This document shows, in pieces, positions 19,714 through 34,959 of a stretch of 64,000 nucleotides of DNA. The stretch comes from Micromonospora echinospora. GTDB lineage: Bacteria > Actinomycetota > Actinomycetes > Mycobacteriales > Micromonosporaceae. Below the pieces are notes generated by a model. That model saw only the letters and a list, made by a program, of their open reading frames with translations. It did no database searches and was not told where the DNA came from. The translations under genes and the position numbers were made by a program. The stretch's first letter is position 1. Each line of letters begins with the position of its first letter. Location: NCBI RefSeq assembly GCF_014203425.1, contig NZ_JACHJC010000001.1, forward strand, positions 682,001 to 746,000, read 5' to 3'.

Positions 19714-19784
19714 GCGGGTGTAGTTCAATGGCAGAACATCAGCTTCCCAAGCTGACAGTGCGGGTTCGATTCCCGTCACCCGCT
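19714..19784 (+). tRNA. tRNA-Gly (anticodon CCC)
   Basis: A 71-nt cloverleaf: acceptor arms GCGGGTG (19714-19720) and CACCCGC (19777-19783), anticodon loop TTCCCAA giving CCC, and T-loop GGTTCGATTCC. The gene ends T-CC-G, so CCA is not fully encoded. Its 3' half, from 19744, is part of the attL repeat, meaning the integrated element rebuilds the tRNA end. TAGAGT (19698-19703) is a likely -10 box. Confidence 0.96.
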
Positions 19785-19786
19785 CC
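19744..19786 (+). other. attL, 43-bp direct repeat
   Basis: Identical to 31129-31171. It begins in the anticodon loop (TTCCCAAG) and runs through the acceptor stem to TCC. The first mismatches are C/A at the left side and G/A at the right side. Confidence 0.93.
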
Positions 19787-19790
19787 GGGT

Positions 19791-19829
19791 TGAGGCCCAG
19801 GTCAGGACACGTTTCCGACCTGGGCCTCA
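19791..19829. terminator. Terminator hairpin between tRNA-Gly and integrase
   Basis: TGAGGCCCAGGTC (19791-19803) pairs perfectly with 19817-19829 around a 13-nt loop. It separates rightward tRNA transcription from the leftward element operon. A diverged copy with compensating stem changes is at 31176-31215. Confidence 0.85.
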
Positions 19830-19839
19830 TTCATGCCGG

Positions 19840-20985
19840 TCACTTCTTGGTCTTGCCGTGCCCCTTGCGTGCCCGATCGCGGCTCTTCTTGATCTGGTCG
19901 CTGAGGCCGCCGGCGATGTGCTGGTCACGCTCCTGGGCGGTGTGCTGGTAGATCAGCGCGGCGCGGGTCGAGGCGTGGCCCATGCGGGCCATCAGGTCGG
20001 CGAGGCTGGCCCCGGTTCGTGAGGCGAGCGTGTTGCCGGTGTGCCGCAGGTCGTGGAAGTGGAAGCCCGGCAGGCCAACCGCCGCCACGGATGCCCGCCA
20101 GTTGCAGGTCCGTTGGAAGTTGGAGCGGCGCAGGACCGCGCCGGTAGCGCCGGTGAAGACGAGCGCGTCCTGGTCCTCGTCGACGAAGTCGTCCAGGTGT
20201 GCGCGGACCTCGCGGCGGATCGCCGCCGGGATGGTGACGGTGCGCAGGCCGGCATCGGTTTTGGGCGGGCCGAAAGTCAGGGTGCCGTCCTGGCGCTCGA
20301 CCAGAGTCGCGCGGACCGTCAGGGTCCGACAGCGCGGGTCGAAGTCGCGGCGGCGAAGGGCGGCCAGCTCTCCGTAGCGGAGGCTGGCGAAGGCGGCCAG
20401 CAGGATGAGGACGCGGAGGCGTCGAGGCACGAGGTCGGCGAGCTGGAAGACCTGGGCGACGGTGGCGGTCGGTCGTTCGGCCGGCCGTTCGATGCCCGCG
20501 CCTTGGATGCGGCAGGGGTTGCGTTGGATCAGTTCGTCGTCAACGGCGGTGTTCAGCACGGCGCGGAGAAGGCGATACGCCTTGGCCGTCATGGTGGGGC
20601 TGACTCCCTCGGTTACGAGGTCAGCACGCCAGGCCCGGATGGCACCGGGGGTGAGGTCGGTGAGGAAGTAGTCGCCGAGTCTCGGCGCGATGTACTTGCG
20701 GTGGAGCCAGCGATAAAGATCGAGGGTGCGAGGTCGCAGACCCGGCCGGTGGTCGATCCACTCGGTCAGGTAGTCGCTGAGGGAGATCCGGCCGAGGTCC
20801 GGGTTGCGCCAGGTGCCCCGGATCATGTCCGCCTCGATCGCGGTGAGCCATCGGTTGGCGTCTGTCTCGGTAGCGAAGGTGCGGGGCGCAGGTCGGTCGA
20901 TGCCGTTGGGATCGGGGTAGCGAGCTTGGAAGCGGCCGGACGGCAGTTTACGGACGCGGCCGAAGCGGCGCTTCTTAGGCGGCAT
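19840..20985 (-). CDS. int: AICE site-specific tyrosine integrase
   Basis: A 381-residue tyrosine recombinase that inserts and excises the element at tRNA-Gly. It has a basic N-terminal arm-binding segment (MPPKKRRFGRVRK), a SAM-like core-binding domain (about 65-170) and the catalytic domain with the first Arg in SLRYGELAALRRRD, HDLRHTG with the second Arg, GHAS and the nucleophile Tyr in ALIYQHTAQERD. It ends in a Lys/Arg-rich tail (KGHGKTKK). The ATG at 20985 is chosen because AAGGGAG lies just upstream; it overlaps the excisionase gene by 11 nt. A longer in-frame start upstream reads against the xis frame and is rejected. Confidence 0.95.
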   Translation of the reverse strand: MPPKKRRFGRVRKLPSGRFQARYPDPNGIDRPAPRTFATETDANRWLTAIEADMIRGTWRNPDLGRISLSDYLTEWIDHRPGLRPRTLDLYRWLHRKYIAPRLGDYFLTDLTPGAIRAWRADLVTEGVSPTMTAKAYRLLRAVLNTAVDDELIQRNPCRIQGAGIERPAERPTATVAQVFQLADLVPRRLRVLILLAAFASLRYGELAALRRRDFDPRCRTLTVRATLVERQDGTLTFGPPKTDAGLRTVTIPAAIRREVRAHLDDFVDEDQDALVFTGATGAVLRRSNFQRTCNWRASVAAVGLPGFHFHDLRHTGNTLASRTGASLADLMARMGHASTRAALIYQHTAQERDQHIAGGLSDQIKKSRDRARKGHGKTKK

Positions 20986-21187
20986 AACGGGTTTCTCCCT
21001 TCGTGTACGTGAGGACCGGTCGGATGGGTTCGACCTGCCCTTGTTGGATGTAGTCGGCCACGTCGTCAGGGTCGAACCGGACGTACTTGCCGACCTTGTA
21101 GAAGCGGATGCGGCGCTCGGCGACGATGCGGCGCACGAAACGCACTCCCGTGCCGAGGCGTTGCGCGGCTTGCTCGACGGTGAGCAT
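20975..21187 (-). CDS. xis: Excisionase (MerR-like helix-turn-helix)
   Basis: A 70-residue DNA-binding protein. The head LTVEQAAQRLGTGVRFVRRIV is a winged helix-turn-helix of the excisionase/BldC-like type, followed by the wing RFYKVGKYVRFDPDDVADYI. Such proteins bend attachment-site DNA and direct the integrase towards excision. It overlaps the integrase start by 11 nt, the normal xis-int coupling in AICEs. Confidence 0.92.
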   Translation of the reverse strand: MLTVEQAAQRLGTGVRFVRRIVAERRIRFYKVGKYVRFDPDDVADYIQQGQVEPIRPVLTYTKGETRYAA

Positions 21188-21232
21188 GTCGACGTCATGG
21201 GGTTCGTTCAGGGCGATCTCCTTCCAGACCGA

Positions 21233-23010
<1,778 letters not shown>

Positions 23011-23011
<1 letters not shown>

Positions 23012-23280
23012 CAGGCGGCCTCACCAGTGAGGTGCCGAGTGGTGATGGTGTGTTGGGTGACGATGATCCGGCAGGCCCCGCACTGGCGGTCGGCCGGTTC
23101 GTGCCGGTAGCAGGGGATGACGGCGGTCGTGTCGCCGCAGCGGATGGTGACCGGGGTCCGGCAAGGACCGCCGGGGATGACGTCGATGACGGTCCTGCGG
23201 GTGTCGTAAGGGTGCGGCTCGTCCGGCCAGGCCGGGCAGGTGTGAGTGAAGTGCTGGATGTCGACGACGTGGATGGTCAT
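23011..23280 (-). CDS. Small AICE protein of unknown function
   Basis: An 89-residue protein with Cys and His residues (HTCPAWPDEP, GGPCRT, VIPCYRHEP, QCGACR) that could bind a metal. It lies directly before repSA with a one-base stop/start overlap, and its own start overlaps the stop of the SpdB-like gene by 4 nt. The tight coupling argues that it is real and used with the replication or spread functions. No family could be named. Confidence 0.7.
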
Positions 23281-24092
23281 CGGGCACCACCGGCGACGGG
23301 GGTGCCGTTGACGGCCGTGGTGTGGCCGTTGATGGAGTGCAGCAGTTCCCGGGCGATGGCCGGGGTGACGGAGAGCAGGGCGGCGAGTTCGTCGGCGGTG
23401 ATGGGTCGGCCGTGGGTCTGCTCGTGCTGGCGGGTGGCGAAGCGGGCGGTGGGCACCAGGTGCGCGGGGACCTCCGGCCGGGCGGCCGGGATCGGGGTGA
23501 GCGCGGGTGTGGCGATGGCGACCGGCGCGGCGGCCGGCGGGGTGTCGACGACGGCCGGCGTCTCGACGGGTTCAGGGGTGGGTTCGGTGGTCTGCTCGGC
23601 CTTGTCCGCCAAGTCGCGGGCGGCGGTGAGCAGGGCGGCGGCTTCGGCTTGGATGGCCGCGAAGTCGGGTCGGATGCGTCCGGCGACGAGTTCCACGCCT
23701 ATGACGAGGACGACGACCAGGGCGAAGACCAGGCGCAGGCCGAGGCTGCCGGGGGAGGCGAAGTTGATGGTTGCCGACAGCAGCGCGGCGCAGGCGAACA
23801 CCACCAGGGCTCCACGCTTGGCGTCCTTGGCGATGCCGGAGGTGCGGACGACGGTGAGCATCGACACCATGGCGGCGTCGAAGATCAGCGGCACCAGGTA
23901 GGCGAAGTAGCCGGCCTTTTGGGTCCACAGGTAGTGGCCCTGGTGTAGGTAGCTGGTGGCGAGTGCGCCGAGCAGAACGAAGCGGTTGTACCGCTTGACG
24001 GAGGCGATTGCCTTGAGCATGGCGGGTACGGCGTTGCGGGCGTACTCGGCGGCGAACTGTTCGGTGACGGCGGCGGGGTCAGTGCTCGACAT
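23277..24092 (-). CDS. SpdB-like spread membrane protein (DUF2637 type)
   Basis: A 271-residue membrane protein. Four hydrophobic segments (FVLLGALATSYLH, GYFAYLVPLIFDAAMVSML, GALVVFACAALLSATINFA, LRLVFALVVVLVIGVELVA) fill residues 38-150, followed by an Ala/Pro/Thr-rich linker and a C-terminal helix-turn-helix-like region (ITADELAALLSVTPAIARELL). This layout is that of DUF2637/SpdB2 proteins of actinomycete plasmids, which help spread the element within the recipient mycelium. It is coupled to both neighbours. Confidence 0.82.
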   Translation of the reverse strand: MSSTDPAAVTEQFAAEYARNAVPAMLKAIASVKRYNRFVLLGALATSYLHQGHYLWTQKAGYFAYLVPLIFDAAMVSMLTVVRTSGIAKDAKRGALVVFACAALLSATINFASPGSLGLRLVFALVVVLVIGVELVAGRIRPDFAAIQAEAAALLTAARDLADKAEQTTEPTPEPVETPAVVDTPPAAAPVAIATPALTPIPAARPEVPAHLVPTARFATRQHEQTHGRPITADELAALLSVTPAIARELLHSINGHTTAVNGTPVAGGAR

Positions 24093-24375
24093 GGGGAGTC
24101 ACCTCCGGTGCCGGGACGGTGTCGAGGGGGATGAGGTCGACTACGCCGGAGCAGTGGGCGCACATGATCGGGGCTAGGCCCTTGGCGGCGAGCTGGTCGC
24201 GGAAGCAGGGCAGGCAGGTGAAGTCGGCCGGGAACAGCCCGTCGCCCTCGCAGAGGGTGCAGGCACCGATGCAGACGGGGCAGGGCTTGTAGACCGGGCC
24301 GACGATGTCGTGGATGCCGGCAGGGCTACTGCCCTCGATGCACCAAAGGCACGGGTCCGACAGGTGGAAGCTCAC
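24079..24375 (-). CDS. Cysteine-rich zinc-ribbon protein of the AICE
   Basis: A 98-residue protein with four CxxC-type pairs (CLWC, CPVC, CTLC with CLPC, CAHC), as in zinc-ribbon proteins. It has no membrane segment. Start and stop overlap the neighbouring transfer-region genes (4 nt and 14 nt). The role is unknown; DNA or protein contact in the transfer complex is a guess from context. Confidence 0.7.
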   Translation of the reverse strand: MSFHLSDPCLWCIEGSSPAGIHDIVGPVYKPCPVCIGACTLCEGDGLFPADFTCLPCFRDQLAAKGLAPIMCAHCSGVVDLIPLDTVPAPEVTPHVEH

Positions 24376-24722
24376 GACGGGTTCCCTTCGTGGCAGTCGA
24401 AGCAGCAGCCGTAGCGGCGGGGGATGTAATAGGGCTGCACTTGGCCGCAGACGCGGCAGGTGCGGCGGGCGCGCAGTGCCTTGGCAATGGCGGCCCGCTG
24501 GGCCTCGGTGGCGGTGCGCTTGGGCGCAGCCAGGTCGAGGCGGTAGAGGTAGGCGACGCGCTTGCCGCGACGCCAGAGGATCTGGGCAACCGGGTAGTTG
24601 CCTCCGGGACGGAGGCCGGCGGCGCGCAGTTGCCGGCGGGTCGCCAGCCCTTGCGGGGCGAGGCGATAGCGGTAGGTGGGGAACTCTTCGTCAGTTCCCG
24701 CGAAGTGGTAGGTGGTGGTCAC
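24372..24722 (-). CDS. RRQL-motif zinc-binding protein of the AICE
   Basis: A 116-residue protein with the segment LATRRQLRAAGLRPGG, typical of the RRQRL-motif zinc-binding family of actinomycete mobile elements, and a C-terminal zinc ribbon (CRVCGQ ... CCFDCHEG). The basic middle region suggests nucleic-acid binding. It overlaps both neighbours by 4 nt. The molecular role is not known. Confidence 0.78.
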   Translation of the reverse strand: MTTTYHFAGTDEEFPTYRYRLAPQGLATRRQLRAAGLRPGGNYPVAQILWRRGKRVAYLYRLDLAAPKRTATEAQRAAIAKALRARRTCRVCGQVQPYYIPRRYGCCFDCHEGNPS

Positions 24723-25018
24723 GGCTTCTCACCGCCCCAGCGCTGCTGGGCGGCTTGCTTGGAGATGCCAAGCCGGGTGCCGATCTCGGACCAGGAGTAG
24801 CCGAAGGCCCGCAGGCCGACGACGGCCTCACCGATGGCCTCGTCGAGGTTGGCCGACAGGGCGACCAGGTCGCGGAGGGCTTCGACGTCACCGGCGGCGA
24901 CGCGGCGGCCGTGGGCGCGGATGATGCGCCGGGCGAACGCGGCGAAGGCGTCGTTCTCGACGACCTCGCGGCGCTTCTGACGGGGGATGCGCGTCAAGGA
25001 CGCCTTGACGGTGAACAT
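24719..25018 (-). CDS. Helix-turn-helix protein of the AICE
   Basis: A 99-residue protein; the ATG at 25018 is taken because it shares a base with the upstream stop. The C-terminal helix-turn-helix YSWSEIGTRLGISKQAAQQRW resembles sigma region-4 and related domains; the N-terminal two thirds is helical and basic. Similar proteins sit in the transfer operons of many AICEs. It may regulate the operon or act as a DNA-recognition partner of the translocase. Confidence 0.75.
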   Translation of the reverse strand: MFTVKASLTRIPRQKRREVVENDAFAAFARRIIRAHGRRVAAGDVEALRDLVALSANLDEAIGEAVVGLRAFGYSWSEIGTRLGISKQAAQQRWGGEKP

Positions 25019-25458
25019 CAGTCCTCGCCTCCGTCGGTGTGGAGGCGGTCCCACTCGTCGGCAGCGGCCTCAAGGGCGGTGATGACCTGCTCGGCGGTGC
25101 GGCCGGGAATGTCGTTCCAGGAGTAGGGAAGGCAGCCGGAGTCGTCGTCGAGAACGAACCCGAGTTCGTCGGTCCAGTAGGCCGGCGTGTCGGTGTCGAG
25201 GTAGTCGGTGAACACGCGGACGGCGAAGAGGTAGTCGACCAGGGCGTCGGTGTCGAGCTGGGCGAATTGCTCGATGCGGTGGCCGGTGCAGGCGATGCCG
25301 ATGGCCCCGACGGCGCAGGCCGGCGGGGTGGGGGTGTCGGTGGTGGCGTAGTAGCTGCCCTGGTGCCAGCCGTGCCGGCGCAGGTAGAGGGCAGCCATCC
25401 GCAGCAGGTCAGCAGTGGTGACTGGTGCGGCGGTGGGTGGGTTGTGGGTAGCCTTCAT
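25018..25458 (-). CDS. DUF6197-like protein
   Basis: A 146-residue soluble protein with the pattern LLRMAALYLRRHGWHQGSYY, CAVGAIGIACTG and WNDIPGRTAEQVITALE, as in DUF6197 proteins found widely on actinomycete mobile elements and of unknown function. ATG 25458 is favoured over GTG 25467 because AAAGGA stands 10 nt before it and only 2 nt before the GTG. It is separated from the next upstream gene by an 86-nt gap with a hairpin. Confidence 0.72.
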   Translation of the reverse strand: MKATHNPPTAAPVTTADLLRMAALYLRRHGWHQGSYYATTDTPTPPACAVGAIGIACTGHRIEQFAQLDTDALVDYLFAVRVFTDYLDTDTPAYWTDELGFVLDDDSGCLPYSWNDIPGRTAEQVITALEAAADEWDRLHTDGGED

Positions 25459-25498
25459 GGCAGCCACGTCCTTTCAGATGGGCTTGGTGGGTGGTCGG

Positions 25499-25535
25499 CA
25501 GGACCAGAGCTGCTGCCAGGCGGGACCTGGTCCTG
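25499..25535 (-). promoter_or_regulatory. Hairpin in the transfer operon
   Basis: CAGGACCAG (25499-25507) and CTGGTCCTG (25527-25535) form perfect 9-bp arms in one of the few gaps of the operon. It may attenuate, process or protect the mRNA between the translocase part and the downstream small genes. Confidence 0.5.
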
Positions 25536-25544
25536 TCGGCCGAT

Positions 25545-25754
25545 TCAGGTGGTGCGCAGCCGCAGGTAGCGGCGTTGGCGGGTGTCGTCGCCGCCCATCG
25601 AGCGCGGGGCGGACAGGTAGACGAGTCGGCCGCTGGCCGAGGCGACCTGGACCATGGCGGCGATGTCCTCGGGACGCCCGACGATCCACAACTCGGTGAA
25701 CTGGGCAGCCCGCTGGTTGTTGGCACGCGCGTAGGTACGCTCGCGGGTGGTCAT
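25545..25754 (-). CDS. Small protein coupled to TraB-like ATPase
   Basis: A 69-residue basic protein (MTTRERTYARANNQR ... RYLRLRTT). Its ATG overlaps the TGA of the ATPase gene by 4 nt, so it is translated with it. The segment ELWIVGRPEDIAAMVQVA resembles a small alpha/beta fold. No family is recognised; a role as translocase accessory is inferred only from coupling. Confidence 0.65.
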   Translation of the reverse strand: MTTRERTYARANNQRAAQFTELWIVGRPEDIAAMVQVASASGRLVYLSAPRSMGGDDTRQRRYLRLRTT

Positions 25755-26620
25755 GCCGCCATCTCCCATCCGGTCGGGTCGACGGCCGGGGTGCTGGTGC
25801 CGGCGGGGCGGCGGGTCCAGGCGGCGTAGTCGGCGATGTTGTAGATGTCGGTGTCGGTGAGGTAGGCCGCCTTGATGCGCCGGGGAACGCCGCCTTCGGC
25901 CAGGAGGTAGGCAGCGCCCTGGTTGGTGGGGGCGATGTCGGAGGCGGTGTAGCCCTGCTCGGCCCAGCCCTGGCCGAGGATGATGTTCGAGCTGTTCAGC
26001 GAGGTGCACCGGAACGCGGCCCGGTAGCCGAACAGGTCCCGCAGGCTGGCAGGGATGATGTCCCACGACGGCCGCTGCGTTGCGGCGACCACCGGCATGC
26101 CGCAGGCGCGGCCGAGGGAGACGAGGCCGCGCAGGAGGGTGGAGAACTCTTCCTGCTGGGCCTTGGTCCCCAGCACCGTAGAGAACATGGCGAGTTCGTC
26201 GATGACGGTGAGGATGACCGACATGCCGTCACCGGGGGCGAGCTTGCGGCGCCGGTTGGCGAGCAGCCAGGTGTAGCGGTTGGTCGCCACGACCAGGAGG
26301 CGGCGCAGCACGTCGATGCCCTGGTCGATGTCGGGGCCGATGAACGCATCGGCCAGGTCGCGCCAGGGGCCGAGTTCGACGAGCTTGGCGTCGAAGAGCA
26401 CGAGGCGGGTGTTGTCGCACAGGACGCCGTGGCCGCAGATGTTGTTGACCAGGCCGGACTTCCCGCCTCCGGGCTCACCGGCGGCGAGCAGGTTGTGATA
26501 GACGACGTCGAGGTAGACGGGCTGGCCGAACTCGTCGATCCCGATGAACACCGGGTCGAACATCGACAGGCCAGCACCCACCGGCACCGCGTCGGCGGTG
26601 GTGGGAATCGTGGTGGTCAT
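25751..26620 (-). CDS. FtsK/TraB-like DNA translocase ATPase subunit
   Basis: A 289-residue FtsK/SpoIIIE-type motor domain. Walker A is GEPGGGKSG near residue 51, Walker B is VILTVIDEL near 140 and the sensor-like segment VVAATQRPS lies near 180. It has no membrane helix and no C-terminal gamma/winged-helix domain. In AICEs a TraB-type motor moves double-stranded DNA into the recipient. Classical TraB proteins are single chains of about 700 residues with membrane helices, but here the membrane part seems to be the separate gene at 26888. Confidence 0.88.
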   Translation of the reverse strand: MTTTIPTTADAVPVGAGLSMFDPVFIGIDEFGQPVYLDVVYHNLLAAGEPGGGKSGLVNNICGHGVLCDNTRLVLFDAKLVELGPWRDLADAFIGPDIDQGIDVLRRLLVVATNRYTWLLANRRRKLAPGDGMSVILTVIDELAMFSTVLGTKAQQEEFSTLLRGLVSLGRACGMPVVAATQRPSWDIIPASLRDLFGYRAAFRCTSLNSSNIILGQGWAEQGYTASDIAPTNQGAAYLLAEGGVPRRIKAAYLTDTDIYNIADYAAWTRRPAGTSTPAVDPTGWEMAA

Positions 26621-26638
26621 GGGATGCGCTCCTTAGGT

Positions 26639-26674
26639 GGGCGCGGAACCCCAACAGGTGGAGACTCCGCGCCC
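26639..26674 (-). promoter_or_regulatory. Hairpin upstream of the translocase ATPase gene
   Basis: GGGCGCGGA (26639-26647) pairs perfectly with TCCGCGCCC (26666-26674) in the 64-nt gap before the ATPase start. It may attenuate or stabilise the operon mRNA. Confidence 0.5.
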
Positions 26675-26684
26675 GTCGAGACAG

Positions 26685-26873
26685 TCAGTCGGAAGGGGTG
26701 CAGGTGTGCTCGCGCTGCGAGCCGTGGCAGCCGCAGGCGAGGTAGCCGCCGGTGTCGAGCAACGGAAGCTCGGGGCCGGTGTCGCAGTGGCCGTTGACGA
26801 GGCCGGACGAGTTGTGCTCGCGCACGTCCACGCCGCACTCGCGGGGGCAGGAGATGTAGTCGGATCGGTTCAT
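26685..26873 (-). CDS. Small cysteine-rich AICE protein
   Basis: A 62-residue protein with seven cysteines (CPRECGVDV, CDTG, CGCHG, CTPSD). The ATG follows GGGAG at a good distance, and the gene fits the gap between the two translocase genes on the same strand. It resembles small zinc-ribbon proteins of transfer operons; function unknown. Confidence 0.65.
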   Translation of the reverse strand: MNRSDYISCPRECGVDVREHNSSGLVNGHCDTGPELPLLDTGGYLACGCHGSQREHTCTPSD

Positions 26874-26887
26874 CGGGGTTGCTCCCG

Positions 26888-27823
26888 TCAGATCCAGTCG
26901 GAGGTGTCGTCGTCCGGCAGGGACGACGCGGAGGAGGCCGCGGGCTTGCTGCCGTTGGCGGTCGTGGCCGGCTTCTTCGCCGGCTTGCCCTGGGCCGGGA
27001 GGGTGATCGTCGGGGTGTCGACGTCCGGCAGGTCCAGGGCGGTGGGCACCGTCAGCGGAGACGCCGAAACCGGCGCGGTCCGGTCGATCACGTCGACCAG
27101 CGGGGAGTTCACCTGAGCGTTGAGCACCTCGCGGCGCTTGATGTCGAACCGCAGGTACGCGGCGTTGCTCTCCCCGGCGCGCTCGATGAGCACGGTCGAG
27201 GCGTGGCAGGTGACCGCGATCTTGTCGAGGCGGGATTCCAGGTCCTTGGCCGACAGGCCAGGACGCAGGTACACCCAGACCCGCTCACCGACCGGCGTGG
27301 GACGAGCCCACAGGATTAGCGGCAGCGAGCCGGACTGGTTGGCGATGATGAACTGCGCGAAGCACACGCGCAGCCGGTGGCGCACCACGAGGCACCATCC
27401 CCATGCCTTGACCTGGCGGCGAACCGGGCCGATGGCGGCTGGAACGCCGACGACCAGGGCGACCACGAGCAGGGTCACCACGGTCGGGGTGTGGTTAGCG
27501 AGCTGCACCCAGCCGGTCAGCAGTCCGGCACTCAGCAGGGTTTCCGGGGTCCACCACCACAGCAGCCGGATGACCGGCCAGATCCGCACGAGCAGCCACA
27601 TGAGGCCGCCGGTCGGAACGCCGATCAGGGCACCGACGAACAGGGCCACGATCGGGTGCCAGTAGGCGGCGGCTACCACGGCCGACAGGACGCCGACGAT
27701 AACGGCGGTGAGGATGAACGCCATGCGGGCGTTACGCGCGGAGGAACGGTGAACCTTGGCCTCGATGACCGTCACCGTTCCGGTTGACTTGCCGCCGAAG
27801 CGGCGGGGGCTAGACTTGGACAC
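26888..27823 (-). CDS. Membrane partner of the split TraB-like translocase
   Basis: A 311-residue protein. The GTG at 27823 follows GGGAGGA by 6 nt. After a basic head it has hydrophobic segments (FILTAVIVGVLSAVVAAA, ALFVGALIGVPTGGLMWLL, VVTLLVVALVVGVPAAI) within about residues 30-150, then a soluble domain (VGERVWVYLRPGLSAKDLE) and a disordered acidic tail ending DTSDWI. This corresponds to the N-terminal membrane and linker region of TraB/FtsK proteins of AICEs. It is the first gene of the leftward transfer operon. The pairing with the 25751 ATPase is inferred from order and complementary domain content. Confidence 0.75.
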   Translation of the reverse strand: MSKSSPRRFGGKSTGTVTVIEAKVHRSSARNARMAFILTAVIVGVLSAVVAAAYWHPIVALFVGALIGVPTGGLMWLLVRIWPVIRLLWWWTPETLLSAGLLTGWVQLANHTPTVVTLLVVALVVGVPAAIGPVRRQVKAWGWCLVVRHRLRVCFAQFIIANQSGSLPLILWARPTPVGERVWVYLRPGLSAKDLESRLDKIAVTCHASTVLIERAGESNAAYLRFDIKRREVLNAQVNSPLVDVIDRTAPVSASPLTVPTALDLPDVDTPTITLPAQGKPAKKPATTANGSKPAASSASSLPDDDTSDWI

Positions 27824-27867
27824 GACGAGTCCTCCCAATGCCAGTTGGGTTGGATGAGTAGGCGGCA

Positions 27868-27981
27868 CCGGGGTCGGCAGACGTAGGAGTCAGTACCGAC
27901 CCCGGGCCATTTCTTCGGGGTTGTCGCCACTGCCAGGTGGCGACCGGACCGGGAGAAGTAGGAGTCAGAGACAACTCCCGG
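27868..27981 (-). promoter_or_regulatory. Three-hairpin leader with twin identical loops
   Basis: Three perfect stem-loops lie upstream of the transfer operon. Hairpin 1: CCGGGGTCGG (27868-27877) with 27896-27905. Hairpin 2: GTCGCCAC (27923-27930) with 27937-27944. Hairpin 3: CCGGGAG (27949-27955) with 27975-27981. Stems 1 and 3 differ, yet both loops hold GTAGGAGTCAG (27883-27893 and 27958-27968). In the leftward transcript the loops read CUGACUCCUAC, containing an anti-Shine-Dalgarno CUCCU that could pair with the operon's GGGAGGA. Confidence 0.6.
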
Positions 27982-28073
27982 AACCGCATGAGGGTTGGTT
28001 CAGCGGACCATCAGGCCGCTTGCGCGGTGGCCACGGACACCGTGTGGCACACACAGCACGTCGTGCGATGGAC

Positions 28074-28391
28074 TTACTTGGCCGCAGAACCGTTCTTCGG
28101 CTTCAGGGACACCGCCCGGAACGCGACGCCGTTACGCCCGTTGGTCGCCCACGGAATGGCCTCCAACTGCTCGACGGCCAGGAAGTCGCCCACCTTCACG
28201 TTCGGCTTCTCTCCCGCCGTGGTGATGGTGATGACCTCCCCGCCGTTCTCGTCGAGCACGAAGACCTGGGTGGACCACATGAGCCGGCCCGTGTTCTTCT
28301 CGGACTTCTGGTTGCCGTTCTGGTCGTTCTTCGGCTCCGGGTCCTTCGACGCCGTCACCTGCTTGCTCGTGGTGTCCACGTACAGCTTCAC
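28074..28391 (-). CDS. Small AICE protein, possible replication/excision regulator
   Basis: A 105-residue soluble protein with a GTG start 6 nt after AGGAGG. It is rich in beta-strand pattern (GRLMWSTQVFVLDENGGEVI, NVKVGDFLAV, GVAFRAVSLKP) with a charged linker. Proteins of this size and place in AICEs are sometimes annotated as activators of replication, integration and excision (Pra), but no firm signature is visible. It is divergent from the XRE-type regulator and separated from the transfer operon by the hairpin leader. Confidence 0.65.
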   Translation of the reverse strand: MKLYVDTTSKQVTASKDPEPKNDQNGNQKSEKNTGRLMWSTQVFVLDENGGEVITITTAGEKPNVKVGDFLAVEQLEAIPWATNGRNGVAFRAVSLKPKNGSAAK

Positions 28392-28446
28392 AACAGACCT
28401 CCTGTGTCTAGGCGCATCCCTTGTTGGATGACTGCCTCACCATCAA

Positions 28447-28467
28447 AGTACCAACTGAGTTGGTACT
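28447..28467. promoter_or_regulatory. 21-bp perfect palindrome, candidate operator
   Basis: AGTACCAACT-G-AGTTGGTACT has 10-bp arms about one central base. It sits in the intergenic region between the divergent 28391 (minus) and XRE regulator (plus) genes. A degenerate half-site (CCAACTGG on the minus strand) occurs near 27840 before the transfer operon. Confidence 0.6.
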
Positions 28468-28547
28468 ACGCCAGGTCATCAACGGACTTTCTTCCGGTGT
28501 TCTGCTGGCACTCACAACGATGACCTTCGTCGCGGTAGAACGACAGG

Positions 28548-28563
28548 TGTCACTGCGGTGACA
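28548..28563. promoter_or_regulatory. Inverted repeat upstream of the AICE regulator
   Basis: TGTCAC-TGCG-GTGACA, 49 nt before the regulator's ATG, is a perfect 6-bp inverted repeat and may be the autoregulatory site of the XRE-type protein. Confidence 0.45.
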
Positions 28564-28611
28564 GGTCGAAGTCCCCTCGCCATGTCCCCGAGCCGGAGCG
28601 ATACTGGCTAC

Positions 28612-29856
28612 ATGGCTGATGTAGCTACTGACCTCGATCGACCCGTCTGGGCTTCCCGGCTGAGAGCTGAGCGCACTGCGCGAGGCTGGTCCCAAGGTGA
28701 GGCCGTGCGAGCGATGCGAGTGCACGCCGTCGAGCAGCTACCCGCCGACAGCACCCTCCTGCGAAACTGGAAGAGGTGGGAATCCGGGAGTTCGGAGCCT
28801 GACGCCTTCTACAAGGCGTTGATTGCGAAGACGTTCGGAACTGTCACGGCCGCCTTCTTCCCGCCCACCGTTTCCCGTGACGCTGATGCCGAGCTGATCG
28901 CCGGAACGGGCATGGAGACGGTCGAAATTCTTGCTCGTTTGCGAACTTCGGACGTCTCCAACGCGACCTTGGAAGCGCTTCGGATCACAGCCGATCGCCT
29001 TTGCAGCGAGTACCCGTACATGTCACCCGATCAGCTCCGGGCCGAAGGCCGATCGTGGTTGCGACGGATCACCGCTCTGATGGACCGCCGGCTAACTCTC
29101 GCTCAGCACCAGGAGGTGCTGACACTTGCGGGATGGGTAGCGTTGCTCGTCGGTTGCGTCGAGTACGACATGGGTCTACGCCGCATCGCCGAGGGAACCC
29201 GCAAAGCGGCGTTGACGCTCGGCGAGGAAGCGGGAAACGCGGCGGTGTCGGGCTGGGCGTATGAGATGCGGGCCTGGTACTCGCTCACACAGGGCGACTA
29301 CCGAGGTGTCATCGCAGCGGCCGAGGCGGGCGAGTTGATCGCAGCCGGTAGTAGCGCAGCGGTGCAGCTCGCCGGCCAGCGTGCCAAGGCGTGGGCTCGA
29401 CTTGGTGACAGGCGACAGGTAGAGATGGCTCTGGACAAGGGCCGGACGCTGCTTGAATCACTGCCATACCCGGAGAACACCGATCACCACTTTGTCGTAG
29501 ACCCGGCAAAGTTCGACTTCTATGCGATGGACTGCTACCGGCTGGCAGGCGAGGATCGCCTAGCAGAGATGTACGCCGAGCAGGTCATGCAGTCGTCGAT
29601 AGACCCCGACGGGACCGAACGTAAGCCAATGCGGATTGCGGAAGCGCGGGTCACGCTCGGAGTGGCCGCTGCCCGGGCGGGCGACCTCGAACGGGCCGTT
29701 GCTCACGGACGGCAGGCGCTTGAAGGCGACCGCAAGTCGTTGCCGTCTCTCCTGATGTGCTCGAAGGAACTCGCGACGCTTCTACGGGCGCGGTACCCGA
29801 AAGACCCGCAGGCGCTGTCGTACCTGGACGAACTTCGGACCCTCAGCGCGAGCTGA
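28612..29856 (+). CDS. XRE-type regulator with TPR-like C-terminal domain
   Basis: A protein of 414 residues from ATG 28612. The N-terminal helix-turn-helix (WASRLRAERTARGWSQGEAV) is of the XRE type, though the recognition part is extended by an insertion (about 20-65). The rest is helical and TPR-like, with a clear unit at VTLGVAAARAGDLERAVAHG. Such proteins resemble peptide- or ligand-sensing regulators of actinomycetes. It is the only large plus-strand gene in the element, divergent from the 28391 gene, with two palindromes between. Starts at 28558 (GTG) and 28582 are also open, and none has a strong ribosome-binding site. Confidence 0.8.
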   Translation: MADVATDLDRPVWASRLRAERTARGWSQGEAVRAMRVHAVEQLPADSTLLRNWKRWESGSSEPDAFYKALIAKTFGTVTAAFFPPTVSRDADAELIAGTGMETVEILARLRTSDVSNATLEALRITADRLCSEYPYMSPDQLRAEGRSWLRRITALMDRRLTLAQHQEVLTLAGWVALLVGCVEYDMGLRRIAEGTRKAALTLGEEAGNAAVSGWAYEMRAWYSLTQGDYRGVIAAAEAGELIAAGSSAAVQLAGQRAKAWARLGDRRQVEMALDKGRTLLESLPYPENTDHHFVVDPAKFDFYAMDCYRLAGEDRLAEMYAEQVMQSSIDPDGTERKPMRIAEARVTLGVAAARAGDLERAVAHGRQALEGDRKSLPSLLMCSKELATLLRARYPKDPQALSYLDELRTLSAS

Positions 29857-30112
29857 CGCCGGAACCGCTCTCATCGGTGTTCACGGGGCTGGGGCGACCG
29901 CCGACGCCAGGACGCGGACGGCTCTCGTGCCAGGACACGATCCGGCTGGGACGCCACATGTGGGTACGCCCGACCGTCGCATCGGGCTCCGGCATCTGGC
30001 TCCGCTTGCGGTAGTTGGAAACGGTCGCCACCTTGACTCCGAGGTACGCAGCTACGTCGGAGGTCGTCCACCACTCCGCGGTTGTGTCTGGGCCAGCTCC
30101 CACGCTCATCAT
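29843..30112 (-). CDS. Helix-turn-helix DNA-binding protein (excisionase/MerR-like)
   Basis: An 89-residue protein starting MMSVGAG, preceded by GGAAAGGA. The segment EWWTTSDVAAYLGVKVATV is a winged helix-turn-helix, and the tail (RPSRIVSWHESRPRP) is the usual end of this small family in actinomycete elements. It is convergent with the XRE regulator and overlaps its 3' end by 14 nt. It could be a second directionality factor or a local regulator. Confidence 0.75.
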   Translation of the reverse strand: MMSVGAGPDTTAEWWTTSDVAAYLGVKVATVSNYRKRSQMPEPDATVGRTHMWRPSRIVSWHESRPRPGVGGRPSPVNTDESGSGVSSR

Positions 30113-30177
30113 TCTGGCATTCCTTTCCGGTGTGGCACCTCCTACTTGCCGCTGTCGAACATGTGTACGATCCTCGC

Positions 30178-30429
30178 GTGGCAAAGGAGCTGGTCACACG
30201 CTGGTGGAACGGCACGTGGGGACGACTGACTCGACGTGATGTGTGGCTTGCCCGCGAAGTGCGGTGGCACGTTATCGCCAGGGCCGGCGACTCCGAGACG
30301 GGCAGGGTGCTCCGGTGGGAGTTCGACACCGAGGACGAGGCACGCCGGATGGCGCAGCGTCTCGTCCAGGCAGACGGCGGCCAGTGGCGAGAGCAGTCCC
30401 GCGATGTAGCCACGCAACCACCGGAGTAG
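30178..30429 (+). CDS. Small conserved protein of actinomycete elements, leaderless
   Basis: An 83-residue protein (VAKELVTRWWNGTWGR ... WHVIARAGDSETGR) rich in Trp and Arg. There is no ribosome-binding site, but TACGAT (30166-30171) stands 6 nt before the GTG, as in leaderless actinobacterial genes. Similar short proteins are seen near the ends of AICEs and plasmids. Function unknown. Confidence 0.6.
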   Translation: MAKELVTRWWNGTWGRLTRRDVWLAREVRWHVIARAGDSETGRVLRWEFDTEDEARRMAQRLVQADGGQWREQSRDVATQPPE

Positions 30430-31128
30430 AGGCCGGGCGGCCGGACTGCCGGCGATGTTGTGCAAAGTTTCTGTACGTCTTCAAGGCGGCCCGAGACGGG
30501 CCGCAAGCGCCGCCGCCTGGGCGCGCGTCCGTCGCTCCGCTGGCGCTCCGACTCCGGCCACGCAGGACGCCCGGCGGCTGGCGCGGGAAGCGGTGAGCCC
30601 GGGGCCGCCGCAGACGGTGGGGCCGAGGGTTGTTGGTGTTCGTGGGCCGGCAGCCGGCCGGGCCGCGCCCCGAGCGGCGCGGCGCAGCGAAGGGCACGCC
30701 GGGTCCGCGCGGCGGGTCGCGGCGGCGAGCTGGTCGCGGTTACCGCGCCTCCGGCGGGGGCGCAACGACTCCGAGATGGTCGGGGGTCCGTCGGCGGGTC
30801 GCGGTCCGTGGGTGGTTGCGCAGGGCCATCCCGCCAGCCGCCGACCCGGGCGAGCCGAGCAGACCACCGCCCGGCCCGCCAGCGTCCGAACGTGCGTCAA
30901 GGTCCGCTTGACGTGGCGGACCGGGCGGCGGCCCGCTCCCCAGAGGGCGGGTCGGCGGCAGACGGGATGGCAAACACTGCGTGGCTCGTGGGCGTGCCCG
31001 ATGCGTGCCCGAAGACCGGGTTTACAGGGGTCAACACCACCGAAGGCAGCGCCGCAAGACTGACGCTCTGTAGTTGCTACCTCGTGGAGGATTGGTCGTT
31101 TGTCTACCGACAGTGACGATCAACCCGA
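30430..31128. other. 699-bp GC-rich region without a recognisable gene, inside attR
   Basis: Open frames exist on both strands but none has a start signal or a plausible protein composition. Clear inverted repeats are GCGGCCC-GAGAC-GGGCCGC (30486-30504) and CGTCAAG-GTCCG-CTTGACG (30895-30913). The position next to attR and the repeats suggest a cis region such as a replication origin or transfer locus (clt); nothing proves this. Confidence 0.5.
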
Positions 31129-31171
31129 TTCCCAAGCTGACAGTGCGGGTTCGATTCCCGTCACCCGCTCC
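31129..31171 (+). other. attR, 43-bp direct repeat
   Basis: An exact copy of 19744-19786. The 5' half of the tRNA is absent, so it is not a tRNA gene. The next base makes CTCCA, so this copy encodes a CCA end that the attL copy lacks. Confidence 0.93.
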
Positions 31172-31175
31172 AACG

Positions 31176-31215
31176 TGAGGCCCCAGCTCAGGACAGGTTT
31201 CTGGCTGGGGCCTCA
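31176..31215. terminator. Relic terminator hairpin, diverged copy of the attL-side hairpin
   Basis: TGAGGCCCCAGC (31176-31187) pairs perfectly with 31204-31215. Compared with 19791-19829, both arms have changed together, which keeps the stem, and the loop keeps TCAGGACA. It lies the same distance from attR as the other lies from attL. Confidence 0.75.
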
Positions 31216-31219
31216 GTCG

Positions 31220-31250
31220 TTACTGCCGCTTCTTGTTGTGGCCGTGCCCG
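31220..31250 (-). pseudogene. Remnant of a second integrase gene (last codons)
   Basis: On the minus strand the bases read GHGHNKKRQ and stop, matching the tail of the resident integrase (KGHGKTKK and stop). The stop is 49 nt from attR, and in the intact copy it is 54 nt from attL. The similarity ends at 31250 where the VOC gene's stop begins. It is best read as the trace of an older related element. Confidence 0.7.
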
Positions 31251-31970
31251 CTACCGCAGTGCTGCTGCAAGGTCGGCGGCGTTGTCGAACGCGGGTGCCG
31301 CCCTTTCGGATTCGTCTTCCGTGAGCGTGACGGACTGGGCGCGGGCCAGCATCTCGGCCGCAGTCTTCGGATCGTCCAGCACCATCGCGAGTTCGGCGCG
31401 GTAGACCAGGACCTCTACCTGCTCGACCGGGTCGTCGTCGGTTTGCGGGCGGGCCAAGGCGCTGTCGAGGATCCGAACGGCCTGTCCGACGCTTCCCCTG
31501 GAATCGGCCTGCACGACAGCATTCGCCAGAGCCTTGGCCAGCCGCCCGGCAGGCGTGGTGGCCGGCATGGGCGCGGTGGCGGCGTGCCGAAAGACGCGGA
31601 TCCAGTTGCCGCCCGGGTCGATGACGCTGAACCCGCCCATCCCGTCGGCGTTCTTCCGCGCCCTGGGCCGGGTCATCCGCGGCGTTCCGGACACCAGTAC
31701 CTTGCCGTACGCGGCGCGCATGCCGGCTGCGAATGCCCGGTGTAGTCCCTCGATGTCCGCGGTGAGTACGAGACAGGAGCCATAGGACTGCTCCGGGTCA
31801 AACCCGGGGATCTCGAAGAACTGCAGATTGAGGTCTTCCCGCTGCACCCCCACACACGCGTTGGGCTTGCGTTGCTTGTACGTGGTCCGGAAACCGAGAA
31901 CTCCATAGAAGGTTTCGATGTCGTCAATGGATGCGCACGGAAGCAGGGGAACGGTCACCTCGTTGGTCAT
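31251..31970 (-). CDS. VOC (glyoxalase/bleomycin-resistance-like) protein with helical C-terminal extension
   Basis: A 239-residue protein. Residues 1-130 form one VOC module pair (IDDIETFYGVLGF, LNLQFFEIPGF, GFSVIDPGGNWIRVF); the remaining 110 are helical and TPR-like (LAKALANAVVQADSRG, AELAMVLDDPKTAAEML). The start follows GGAAGGAGGC. VOC proteins range from dioxygenases and glyoxalases to antibiotic-binding proteins; the substrate is unknown. It sits at the very edge of the element relic, so its 3' end may have been shaped by the insertion. Confidence 0.8.
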   Translation of the reverse strand: MTNEVTVPLLPCASIDDIETFYGVLGFRTTYKQRKPNACVGVQREDLNLQFFEIPGFDPEQSYGSCLVLTADIEGLHRAFAAGMRAAYGKVLVSGTPRMTRPRARKNADGMGGFSVIDPGGNWIRVFRHAATAPMPATTPAGRLAKALANAVVQADSRGSVGQAVRILDSALARPQTDDDPVEQVEVLVYRAELAMVLDDPKTAAEMLARAQSVTLTEDESERAAPAFDNAADLAAALR

Positions 31971-32420
31971 GCCTCCTTCCTAAGCGCCGCAGGGTGTCCG
32001 TCGCACATGGAAAGAGCCGATCATCGCCTTCGGTTATCCGATCGGCTGATGACCCAGAGCGCAACGTGGCCCGGCCGAACCATCGGCGGTGCCTTCCTGC
32101 CTGCCACATGTCTCGCCAGGATCAGGCGCCTGGATCTGCCGCGCCCCGCCAGATCGGCCGCCCGCTCTCGGTGGCGAAACGCCAAGCTCCGGAAACGCCT
32201 CGGGTTGCTGCCCGAACCCGGCCCTCCTCGGAGATCATCCGCACCAGTTCCGACTTTCCAGCCACCTGGCTCTGGAACACACGCCCGCCGAACACCGAGA
32301 GGTCCCTTGGTCGAAGCCGCCGCCCCGCGGAGCCTTGGCGGGTGCGGGATCATGCCTGTCATGACTTCGGAAGAGGTTCGCTGGTCAGATGTCGCCTGCT
32401 TCGTCGGGCGATCCGATTAA
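31971..32420. other. Intergenic region without a convincing gene
   Basis: About 450 nt of lower-quality coding signal. Short frames on both strands lack start signals and recognisable domains. I see no RNA gene or clear terminator. Confidence 0.5.
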
Positions 32421-32642
32421 ATTCCGTCGGCGCTCGCAGACCTCTCATCCCCCGACAAGCAGGTTCGCTCGAAAGCGCTCAGGTTGCTGACGCACGACCT
32501 TGTTTGGAACGAGAACGTCTGGGAAGCAACGCCATATGCAATTCGCGAAATCGTGCAACGCCTGGAGCGGCGTGAGATCGCAAACCCTGAAGAGGCGCTG
32601 GCGCTGCCGATGAGCGCACGTTCTGATCCGGAGCCATTCGTG
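32421..32642 (+). pseudogene. Fragment of a HEAT-repeat-like protein gene
   Basis: One frame reads a coherent helical stretch (ALADLSSPDKQVRSKALRLL, then WEATPYAIREIVQRLERREI) typical of immunity/HEAT-like proteins. An in-frame TAA (32418) cuts it off at the left, with no ATG/GTG start, and it runs without a natural end into the AraC gene region. GC content is lower than in the neighbours. It is best read as a truncated, dead gene. Confidence 0.5.
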
Positions 32643-32662
32643 GTTACACGTACCATCGGGAC

Positions 32663-33511
32663 GTGCGACCTACTGAGCCGGTGCGCTCCGGTCCGCCCGC
32701 TTGGGACATCGCGGTCCCGGCACGACCGGGCCGGTTGGCGGGGGTCACCATGGCGGGGTTCAGCGATCGGGCTGACACTCCGGTCGAGGTCGAGGTGGTG
32801 CCGCATCCCGCTCTCATGGTGCTCTTCGACCTCGGTGACCAGCCGCTCGTCGTTGACGACGGCAGTGGGCAGCAACGGCGAGGCTCCGTCACCGCCGGGC
32901 TCGCGCCTCCCCACGGTGCTCGCGGACGAGGCCAGGCCGGAAGCTCCGTGTGCCTTCAGGTGCGGCTGTCGCCCGTGGTCGCGTACGCGGTCCTGAGCGG
33001 CGCGCCGGAGTTGAGTGGGGCCGTGACGACCCTTGACGACCTGTGGGGGCGTGACGCCGCGCGGGTCCAGGAGCAGTTGCGCGCCGCCCGGTCCTGGGAC
33101 GACCGTTTCGCGATCGTCGAGGTGGCGCTGGTCCGACGTCACGACGCGAGCCGCGCGGTCGATGCGGAAGTGGCCTTCTGCTGGAGGCGGATGGTGGCGA
33201 GCCGGGGGCAGGTGCGGGTCGAGCGGCTGGCGGCTGAGGTCGGGTGGAGCCGCAAACGGCTGTGGGCCCGGTTCCGGTCCCAGATCGGTCTCACCCCCAA
33301 GCGGGCCGCGCAGCTCATCCGGTTCGATAGTGCGGCTCATCGCCTCGCCGCGGGTCACAGCGCCGCTGCGACGGCGGCGGACAGCGGTTACGCCGATCAG
33401 TCCCACCTGCATCGCGAGGTAATGACCTTCACCGGAGCGACGCCGGCGACAGTGGCGAGCGCGCCGTTCCTGGCCGTCGACGATGTCGCGTGGCCCGCCC
33501 GGGCCGGCTGA
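32663..33511 (+). CDS. AraC-family transcriptional regulator
   Basis: A 282-residue regulator. The N-terminal 150 residues form a cupin-like sensing domain (PHPALMVLFDLGDQPLVV); the C-terminal 100 carry the double helix-turn-helix (VRVERLAAEVGWSRKRLWAR, SGYADQSHLHREVMTFTG). The GTG start at 32663 has no strong ribosome-binding site. It lies 83 nt before the hydrolase gene on the same strand and probably controls it. Confidence 0.85.
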   Translation: MRPTEPVRSGPPAWDIAVPARPGRLAGVTMAGFSDRADTPVEVEVVPHPALMVLFDLGDQPLVVDDGSGQQRRGSVTAGLAPPHGARGRGQAGSSVCLQVRLSPVVAYAVLSGAPELSGAVTTLDDLWGRDAARVQEQLRAARSWDDRFAIVEVALVRRHDASRAVDAEVAFCWRRMVASRGQVRVERLAAEVGWSRKRLWARFRSQIGLTPKRAAQLIRFDSAAHRLAAGHSAAATAADSGYADQSHLHREVMTFTGATPATVASAPFLAVDDVAWPARAG

Positions 33512-33594
33512 CGTCCGTCCTGACATTCGTTCAATCCACCGGGACGCAACGGCTGTGACAGTGAGCTCACAGCGTCTGCATCCCGGAGGACACC

Positions 33595-34551
33595 ATGAGA
33601 GGCAAGGCTCCACTGGGCACCCGGCTCCTGAGGGACAGCCAGGACTGGGAGGCTCTGACCGACGACGAGTTGATCGCCGCGCGCGACAAGGCGAACCGCG
33701 TGGCGTCGTCGCGTGCCGCCCGGGTCATCACCGGCCGGCCGGATCGCGGTGCGTATATCGAGCAGACCTCGATCGATCTTCCGGGCCGCCGCCTGATGCT
33801 GCGGGTTCACCGTCCGAAGGACGCCAGCGGACGCCTGCCGCTGGTTGTCTCGTTCCACGGCGGAGGTTTTTTCGCGGGCACCGCTGCGCAGAACGACTGG
33901 CTCAACAGCCACCTCGCGGCGCGGTGCCCCGCGGTGGTCGTCTCGGTGGAGTACCGCCTCGCTCCGGAGCACCCGCTGCCCCAGCCGATAGACGACGGCT
34001 ATGACACTGTGGTCCGGCTCGTCGACGACGCCGCCCGGTGGGGCGTAGATCCCGCATCCGTCGCGGTCATGGGTGAGAGCGCGGGCGGCACGATCGCCGG
34101 ACTTGTCGCCCTGCGTGCCCGTACGGACGGCCCACCGCTGCGCGCCCAGGCGCTGATCTACCCGGGCACGGACTGGACGGAGAGCATGACCGAGTACTCC
34201 TCGGTCACCGAGAACGCCGACAATCCCACGCTGTCGTTGTCCCGGCTGCGCGTCGCCCGCAAGTTGAGCGTGCCGCCCACCCTCGACCCGCGCAGCGTGT
34301 CGCCCGTCAAGTTCGACAGCCTTGCCGGACTGCCGCCGACACTGGTCGTCACCGCCGCGCTGGATCCGCTGGCCGACCATGGACGCCGCTACGTCGAGCG
34401 ACTTCGCGAGGACGGCACCGACACCCACCTGACCTGCTACCCGAGGGCCACCCACACCTTCCTGAGCATTCCTGGCCTCGTGCCGGCCGCCCGGCCGGCG
34501 CGCCGCGAGATCGTCGCCTTCCTGCGCGGTCACCTTCATCCGGCGCCGTGA
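33595..34551 (+). CDS. Alpha/beta hydrolase, HSL family (esterase/lipase)
   Basis: A 318-residue hydrolase of the hormone-sensitive-lipase group. The oxyanion motif is FHGGGFFAG near residue 85, the nucleophile Ser lies in GESAGG near 162, the Asp in DPLADH and the His in ATHTFLS near 288. The ATG follows GGAGGACACC. These enzymes hydrolyse short-chain esters; the natural substrate is unknown. It follows the AraC gene on the same strand. Confidence 0.92.
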   Translation: MRGKAPLGTRLLRDSQDWEALTDDELIAARDKANRVASSRAARVITGRPDRGAYIEQTSIDLPGRRLMLRVHRPKDASGRLPLVVSFHGGGFFAGTAAQNDWLNSHLAARCPAVVVSVEYRLAPEHPLPQPIDDGYDTVVRLVDDAARWGVDPASVAVMGESAGGTIAGLVALRARTDGPPLRAQALIYPGTDWTESMTEYSSVTENADNPTLSLSRLRVARKLSVPPTLDPRSVSPVKFDSLAGLPPTLVVTAALDPLADHGRRYVERLREDGTDTHLTCYPRATHTFLSIPGLVPAARPARREIVAFLRGHLHPAP

Positions 34552-34572
34552 AGCGGGCGGCCGCCCGACGAA

Positions 34573-34959
34573 TCAGGGGTTCAGGCTCGCCCACTGCGCC
34601 TGGGTGGGCAGCTCCCCGTGGTTGAGGCGGTCGGCTACCGCCTGCTTCGCGGCCCGGTCCAGCGTCTCGGGCAGCCGGTCGAACGACGCGGGCCAGACGT
34701 CGAGCAACGAGAAGATCTCCTGACCGTCGCGCACGGTCAGCAGCAGCATGCACCGCCAGTGCGGGCAGAACTCCGGCCGCCGGCCCGCCCTGTGCACCAG
34801 GAACGGGTGTAGGTAGTGCAGGGCGTGCGGGGCGGCGTGCTCCGCGAGCCAGCCGTGGCCGTGATTGCGGCTGAACCCGTACTCGATCGCCTGGCTGTCG
34901 AGTTGGATGAGCGTGGCGGTGTCGACCGCCTTGACGGTCCGGGGCACGGGAGACGGCAC
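34573..34959 (-). CDS. Conserved hypothetical protein
   Basis: A 128-residue protein with conserved-looking stretches (IQLDSQAIEYGFSRNHGHGW, HYLHPFLVHRAGRRPEFCPH, LLLTVRDGQEIFSLLDV). No known domain is recognised. It is convergent with the hydrolase gene and divergent from the RibD-like gene. Confidence 0.65.
   Translation of the reverse strand: MPSPVPRTVKAVDTATLIQLDSQAIEYGFSRNHGHGWLAEHAAPHALHYLHPFLVHRAGRRPEFCPHWRCMLLLTVRDGQEIFSLLDVWPASFDRLPETLDRAAKQAVADRLNHGELPTQAQWASLNP

Follow-up and report, generated by a model that had tools for sequence, protein, structure and literature searches.

To the right of an integrated element in a 64,000-nucleotide stretch of DNA from Micromonospora echinospora (hereafter the window, part of a 7.13 Mb genome in one contig), positions 31172-31254 are very probably the att-proximal end of an earlier AICE, with a subtype-C integrase, that resided in the same tRNA-Gly(CCC) gene in the past; we assign this reading a probability of about 0.88. 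Its homology, its position, its truncation, its absence from the nearest relatives examined and its precise junction with the neighbouring gene were all shown directly. The features on which the analysis is based are the following.

19714-19786, plus strand: tRNA-Gly (CCC), the integration target, predicted by ARAGORN
19744-19786, plus strand: attL core, the last 43 nt (3' half) of the tRNA, from comparison of core copies
19791-19829, plus strand: terminator-like hairpin at attL, type B, with 13-bp perfect arms (19791-19803/19817-19829), from inverted repeat search and folding
19840-20985, minus strand: subtype-B tyrosine integrase of the present AICE (Pfam PF00589, C-terminus read; start coordinate provisional)
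21236-23011, minus strand: RepSA-type replication initiator of the present AICE (PF20199, E 2e-139)
25754-26620, minus strand: FtsK/SpoIIIE-type transfer protein of the present AICE (PF01580, E 4e-07)
31129-31171, plus strand: attR core, an exact 43-nt copy of the tRNA 3' half, from comparison of core copies
31176-31215, plus strand: relic terminator-like hairpin, type C, with 12-bp perfect arms (31176-31187/31204-31215), from inverted repeat search and folding
31220-31254, minus strand: relic integrase C-terminus, subtype C, comprising the stop, the last ten codons (SGHGHNKKRQ) and two bases, from comparison with C sites and translation
31253-31254, no strand: junction of the integrase tail with the 3' end of the VOC-like gene, a 2-nt overlap (AC), from comparison with VOC copies
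31251-31970, minus strand: VOC/bleomycin-binding-like open reading frame, with homology to copies elsewhere reaching about 32142
32143-32178, minus strand: 36-nt piece of the catalytic domain of a subtype-A integrase (FATESGRPIWRG), from similarity search
32642-34693, plus strand: AraC-type regulator with alpha/beta hydrolase, a pair shared with genome G121

The attR core was located 11.4 kb to the right of the attL core, and Pfam matches to integrase, RepSA, FtsK/SpoIIIE and DUF2637 were obtained between the two. With an att-adjacent tyrosine integrase, RepSA, FtsK/SpoIIIE and direct repeats of the tRNA 3' end at both borders, the region 19744-31171 reads from its genes as a pSAM2-type AICE. 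Elements of this type include pACPL of Actinoplanes and pMR2 of Micromonospora rosaria, and most AICEs enter the 3' end of a tRNA gene (PMC3364876). The gene content of pACPL (int, xis, repSA and an FtsK/SpoIIIE-type tra) resembles that of the window's element, and the passages of that account dealing with pACPL and pMR2 mention no relic (PMC3364876). The best named relative of the window integrase was found in M. thermarum (90%), and in genome G013 the same tRNA is occupied by an element 93-94% like that of the window over the matched parts.

The initial annotation had described a second hairpin and integrase tail to the right of attR, in the same order as on the attL side, and this proved real and far beyond chance. 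The feature is longer than the 31176..31250 first assigned to it, extending over 31172-31254, and ten codons before the stop remain in place of the nine noted (GHGHNKKRQ). Folding returned -32.8 kcal/mol (z -7.1) for the left hairpin and -32.5 kcal/mol (z -6.0) for the right one, each better than 200/200 shuffles. The left integrase tail ends in ...RARKGHGKTKK with its stop at 19840-19842, the right one in GSGHGHNKKRQ with its stop at 31220-31222, and the gap between hairpin and stop is 10 nt on the left and 4 nt on the right. Three stem pairs are changed on both sides between the two hairpins (A-T/C-G, G-C/A-T, T-A/C-G), as read from stems aligned by eye from the stem base, an 18-hairpin alignment having been left unused with its arms out of register. 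The compensating changes initially reported therefore exist, but they distinguish hairpin types found genus-wide and do not reflect drift within one lineage.

On sequence comparison, chance is excluded as the source of the likeness between the right-hand copy and an integrase end, because an 89-nt query (31172-31260) matched other Micromonospora genomes down to E 3e-23. The search covered 61 genomes (60 relatives and the genome itself), 10 of which matched at E <= 0.01, all within the genus; none of the 24 genomes from other genera did so.

We then assigned the copy to a subtype, type B being defined by likeness to the present integrase end and type C by likeness to the integrase end of genome G109. 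The right-hand 83 nt showed a mean identity of 82% to 24 other C sites, with a maximum of 89% (75/84 over 31172-31254), 68% to 17 B sites and 59% to 137 others. The relic tail and hairpin are thus placed by similarity in integrase subtype C, another subtype than that of the present element (B). The order and spacing of the parts are the same at both ends, which might suggest that the right-hand copy is a duplicated and drifted version of the present element's own left end; when the two ends were aligned, 59/83 positions were identical, below the 75/84 reached with subtype C, and on these identities the duplication was rejected, its probability being negligible. The proposal that an older, related element had left its att-proximal end at this site is consequently supported as regards an AICE-type integrase end, which belongs to a different subtype and is no drifted copy.

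The search for the diverged tail also showed that this tRNA harbours C-type integrases in other genomes of the genus. In G109, a C integrase at this tRNA-Gly(CCC) is open over its full length, ends in ...RARSGHGQRKKR and stands beside a RepSA gene; five open reading frames of that element were scanned, returning the integrase, RepSA and an IS transposase, with no FtsK-type protein among them. Further genomes in which the C homology breaks off are G032, G026, G099, G158, G173, G123 and G132.

The DNA to the right of the tRNA was then surveyed in 150 of 151 genomes of the genus (149 others and the window's own, G011 being left out), with at least 5 kb downstream covered in 114/150 and about 1.5 kb in 30. 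A B- or C-type hairpin and tail followed 42 of 180 copies of the tRNA 3' half, a number in which hairpin-less sites are under-counted, since tail sites were found by similarity including the hairpin. The homology extended over 40-941 nt at 37 of these sites and over 1436 nt or more at the other 5, and at the 37 early-ending sites it broke off at many different places, a loss of similarity that does not everywhere amount to deletion. Most breaks look independent, because among the 26 sites with homology of at most 142 nt only two pairs share at least 300 nt beyond the break; two further sites match others over a shorter length. Eight of the 42 sites stand behind an att half-copy, as in the window. 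Four places matched by the 89-nt query lie outside the 42, G010 contributing two of them and G014 and G035 one apiece, being off the covered tRNA flank or next to a core too diverged. Altogether, the comparison shows that one Micromonospora tRNA gene has been entered repeatedly by integrative elements of several integrase subtypes.

The flanks of 132 genomes could be compared with that of the window, and the 11 closest (89-95% identity) carry a non-B/C hairpin at the tRNA and no B/C tail there. They are led by G086 (95.2%), G083 (94.4%, over 1.4 kb only) and G020 (94.1%), followed by flanks of 89-91%, and include G121; three of them (L034, L035 and L029) were covered for about 1.5 kb downstream, with 14 kb then obtained for L029 (G121). 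The next closest genome, G018 (88%), has a B-like hairpin and tail. As far as this coverage allowed, the right-hand sequence did not appear in these closest relatives; its presence in related strains never entered by an element would have spoken against the relic. Collinearity across the genus holds to the left of the tRNA and to the right of a point that varies among genomes (about 35.5-38.7 kb), with a variable stretch in between. In G121, the window's AraC/hydrolase pair (86%) begins about 400 nt to the right of the same tRNA. As the nearest relatives are devoid of the B/C tail and the G121 pair starts so close to the tRNA, the window's lineage probably acquired the C tail, the VOC gene and the B element, all of them between the tRNA and the flank. 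The AraC/hydrolase pair (32606-34554) was also observed elsewhere in several genomes at 72-88% identity, and in G121 directly to the right of the tRNA-Gly(CCC).

These data bear on the view that the right-hand sequence is the native terminator region of the tRNA-Gly(CCC), with the likeness to integrase accidental or copied by elements. A strong hairpin (dG <= -20) follows 148 of the 149 tRNAs examined, so that a hairpin as such is native-like; yet in other genomes the tail is part of a longer integrase sequence, in the extreme case a fully open gene, and the nearest relatives have a different hairpin type and lack the B/C tail. A native terminator alone was rejected on these grounds and is very unlikely.

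Hybrid ends were observed at two loci. In G067 (L187), an A-type (A/B hybrid) hairpin runs into a B-type integrase end, and in G114 (L207) a C-type hairpin is combined with a B-type integrase; both point to exchange between types of element at the hairpin. The window's tail could likewise stem from recombination, placed by hairpin exchange or by imprecise excision of a visiting element, with a C element never stably resident. The mosaic combinations of G114 and G067 lend this some plausibility, but tail and hairpin in the window are both C-type and collinear, and the C homology of many lengths at this tRNA, up to an open gene, is more simply explained by decay. We regard such an origin as unlikely. 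Neither the shortness of the relic, nor recombination, nor the lack of an FtsK-type protein among the five G109 reading frames scanned, nor missed hairpin-less tails favours another origin of the tail.

The right border of the relic was defined by comparison of the VOC-like gene with its copies elsewhere. The encoded protein remained below the NCBIfam cut-offs, and 29 copies with 81-96% DNA identity were found at other loci of the genus. A stop of their own occurs at the junction place in 28 of the 29 (TGA in 26, TAA in 2), L055 being without this end, while in the window a TAG that arises together with the integrase tail takes the place of the gene's stop. On the window strand, the VOC copies typically read ...GTGAGTCACCGCAGTG at the junction and the window reads ...GTGCCCGCTAC and then CGCAGTG. 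The C tail is thus fused to the VOC-like gene inside its stop codon.

The recurring VOC unit (31254-32142) consists of the gene and about 100-170 nt of upstream DNA, about 0.9 kb in all. None of the 20 VOC contexts fetched shares DNA beyond this unit with the window's surroundings, with the one exception of L131, which has a single match to 30465-30973 of the present AICE, though a few copies have flanks in common; it may be a mobile unit of a single gene. A genus-wide search with the left flanks of two copies gave matches in 124/151 and 151/151 genomes, and in most of the matches listed part of the query was covered at about 70-75% identity. With the first flank, homology ended about 120-220 nt before the unit in 23 of 24 other loci, and these 23 showed no match to the VOC gene or the right flank; G092 (L226) alone matched throughout, and the 24 loci yielded no exact borders for the unit. 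The VOC gene was also considered as cargo of the C element, which G109 does not support, its sole VOC match being weak (E 1e-29) and far from its tRNA.

Next to this unit, the 36-nt fragment at 32143-32178 is 92-97% identical to the A-type integrases that nine genomes carry at this tRNA and has the same orientation, the matched part being (T/S)TESGRPIWRG of the catalytic domain. The best E value was 4e-10, compared with 0.21 in a reversed-sequence control database. Because this fragment matches A-type integrases and lies beside a B element and a C tail, the window carries traces of three integrase subtypes (B, C and A). At least two different elements used this spot, and probably three. The relic of a second element, as first annotated, is accordingly present, though it is not the only one, the A fragment lying further to the right.

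On the preferred reading, a C element would have inserted in the tRNA 3' half, and an illegitimate deletion or rearrangement would then have removed its body together with its attR, so that the last ten or so codons of the integrase gene became joined to the stop codon of the VOC-like gene. The B-type AICE would have inserted into the tRNA/attL in front, and both orders fit, with decay of the C element before or after its arrival. The A fragment would come from yet another element, which may be still older. About 83 nt is all that remains of the C element; between 31171 and 55213 the window showed no further att core, and no second rep or tra gene was noticed among four proteins scanned to the right of attR. 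The lack of a second att copy of its own counts against a complete element, not against a relic. A specific element subtype can thus be recognised from a fossil as short as a 30-nt integrase tail behind a tRNA.

The hairpins were finally compared with background sequence. A strong hairpin (dG <= -20) follows the tRNA in 148/149 genomes compared with 61% of 117 background stretches, with a median dG of -34.7 behind the tRNA and -20.7 in the background, and a perfect inverted repeat of at least 8 bp occurs at 140/179 sites compared with 27/725 background stretches. The right-hand hairpin is not followed by a T run. Two loci, L016 (G101, the sole dG failure) and L036 (G122), have a quite different 3' flank of the tRNA-Gly(CCC), and the usual-family hairpin is absent next to the tRNA in both. 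From these comparisons, the tRNA-adjacent hairpin probably ends tRNA transcription, and the need for a terminator may explain why this end survives the decay of an element, the hairpin outliving the element because the tRNA perhaps requires it. We tentatively propose, at somewhat less than even odds, a succession of terminators, in which an entering element severs the tRNA from its terminator and installs its own hairpin, which can no longer be lost, so that a dead element leaves behind the hairpin and a few integrase codons. If this were true, the tRNA flank could be read as a stratigraphy, here with layers B, C and A, and dead elements would have supplied the domesticated terminators on which the host tRNA runs. 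Should the hairpins be functional terminators, how the tRNA works while elements repeatedly replace its 3' flank becomes testable.

Tandem AICEs and remnants at one tRNA have already been published, and the window is a new instance in Micromonospora; a limited literature search showed no paper on this tRNA-Gly site among the entries listed. At a Streptomyces tRNA-Arg, several AICE families have accreted between direct repeats and the trace of an ancient element remains (PMC9513070). As there, elements are stacked at one tRNA together with a remnant in the window, but the Streptomyces remnant is an element devoid of traB (PMC9513070), whereas that of the window, at a Micromonospora tRNA-Gly(CCC), has no attR and is reduced to a hairpin with ten codons. 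Tandem AICEs are also described at the tRNA-Lys of Frankia EAN1pec and the tRNA-Arg of S. avermitilis, with closely related integrases in one case and integrases of different subfamilies in the other (PMC3218068). Those tandems consist of extant elements (PMC3218068), while the window holds one element and the fossil of a second.

Within Micromonospora, two or more core copies were counted at this tRNA in 27/150 genomes, the window included, a count that allowed up to 8 mismatches and may contain one or two spurious copies; relatives with several att copies at this tRNA thus exist. Tandem elements, whose existence at this tRNA-Gly in other genomes had been suggested for checking, do occur: in G067, an open integrase of type B adjoins the tRNA and another of type A, likewise open, follows the attR. 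The arrangement in G071, with an open A-type integrase in front and a C tail behind its attR whose homology ends at 80 nt, is the closest parallel to the window. G061 was considered as a case of two live elements and discarded, the integrases in its array being interrupted or cut. In G108 (L151), four copies of the tRNA 3' half, its own and three more, lie within about 12 kb in a dense array of element ends.
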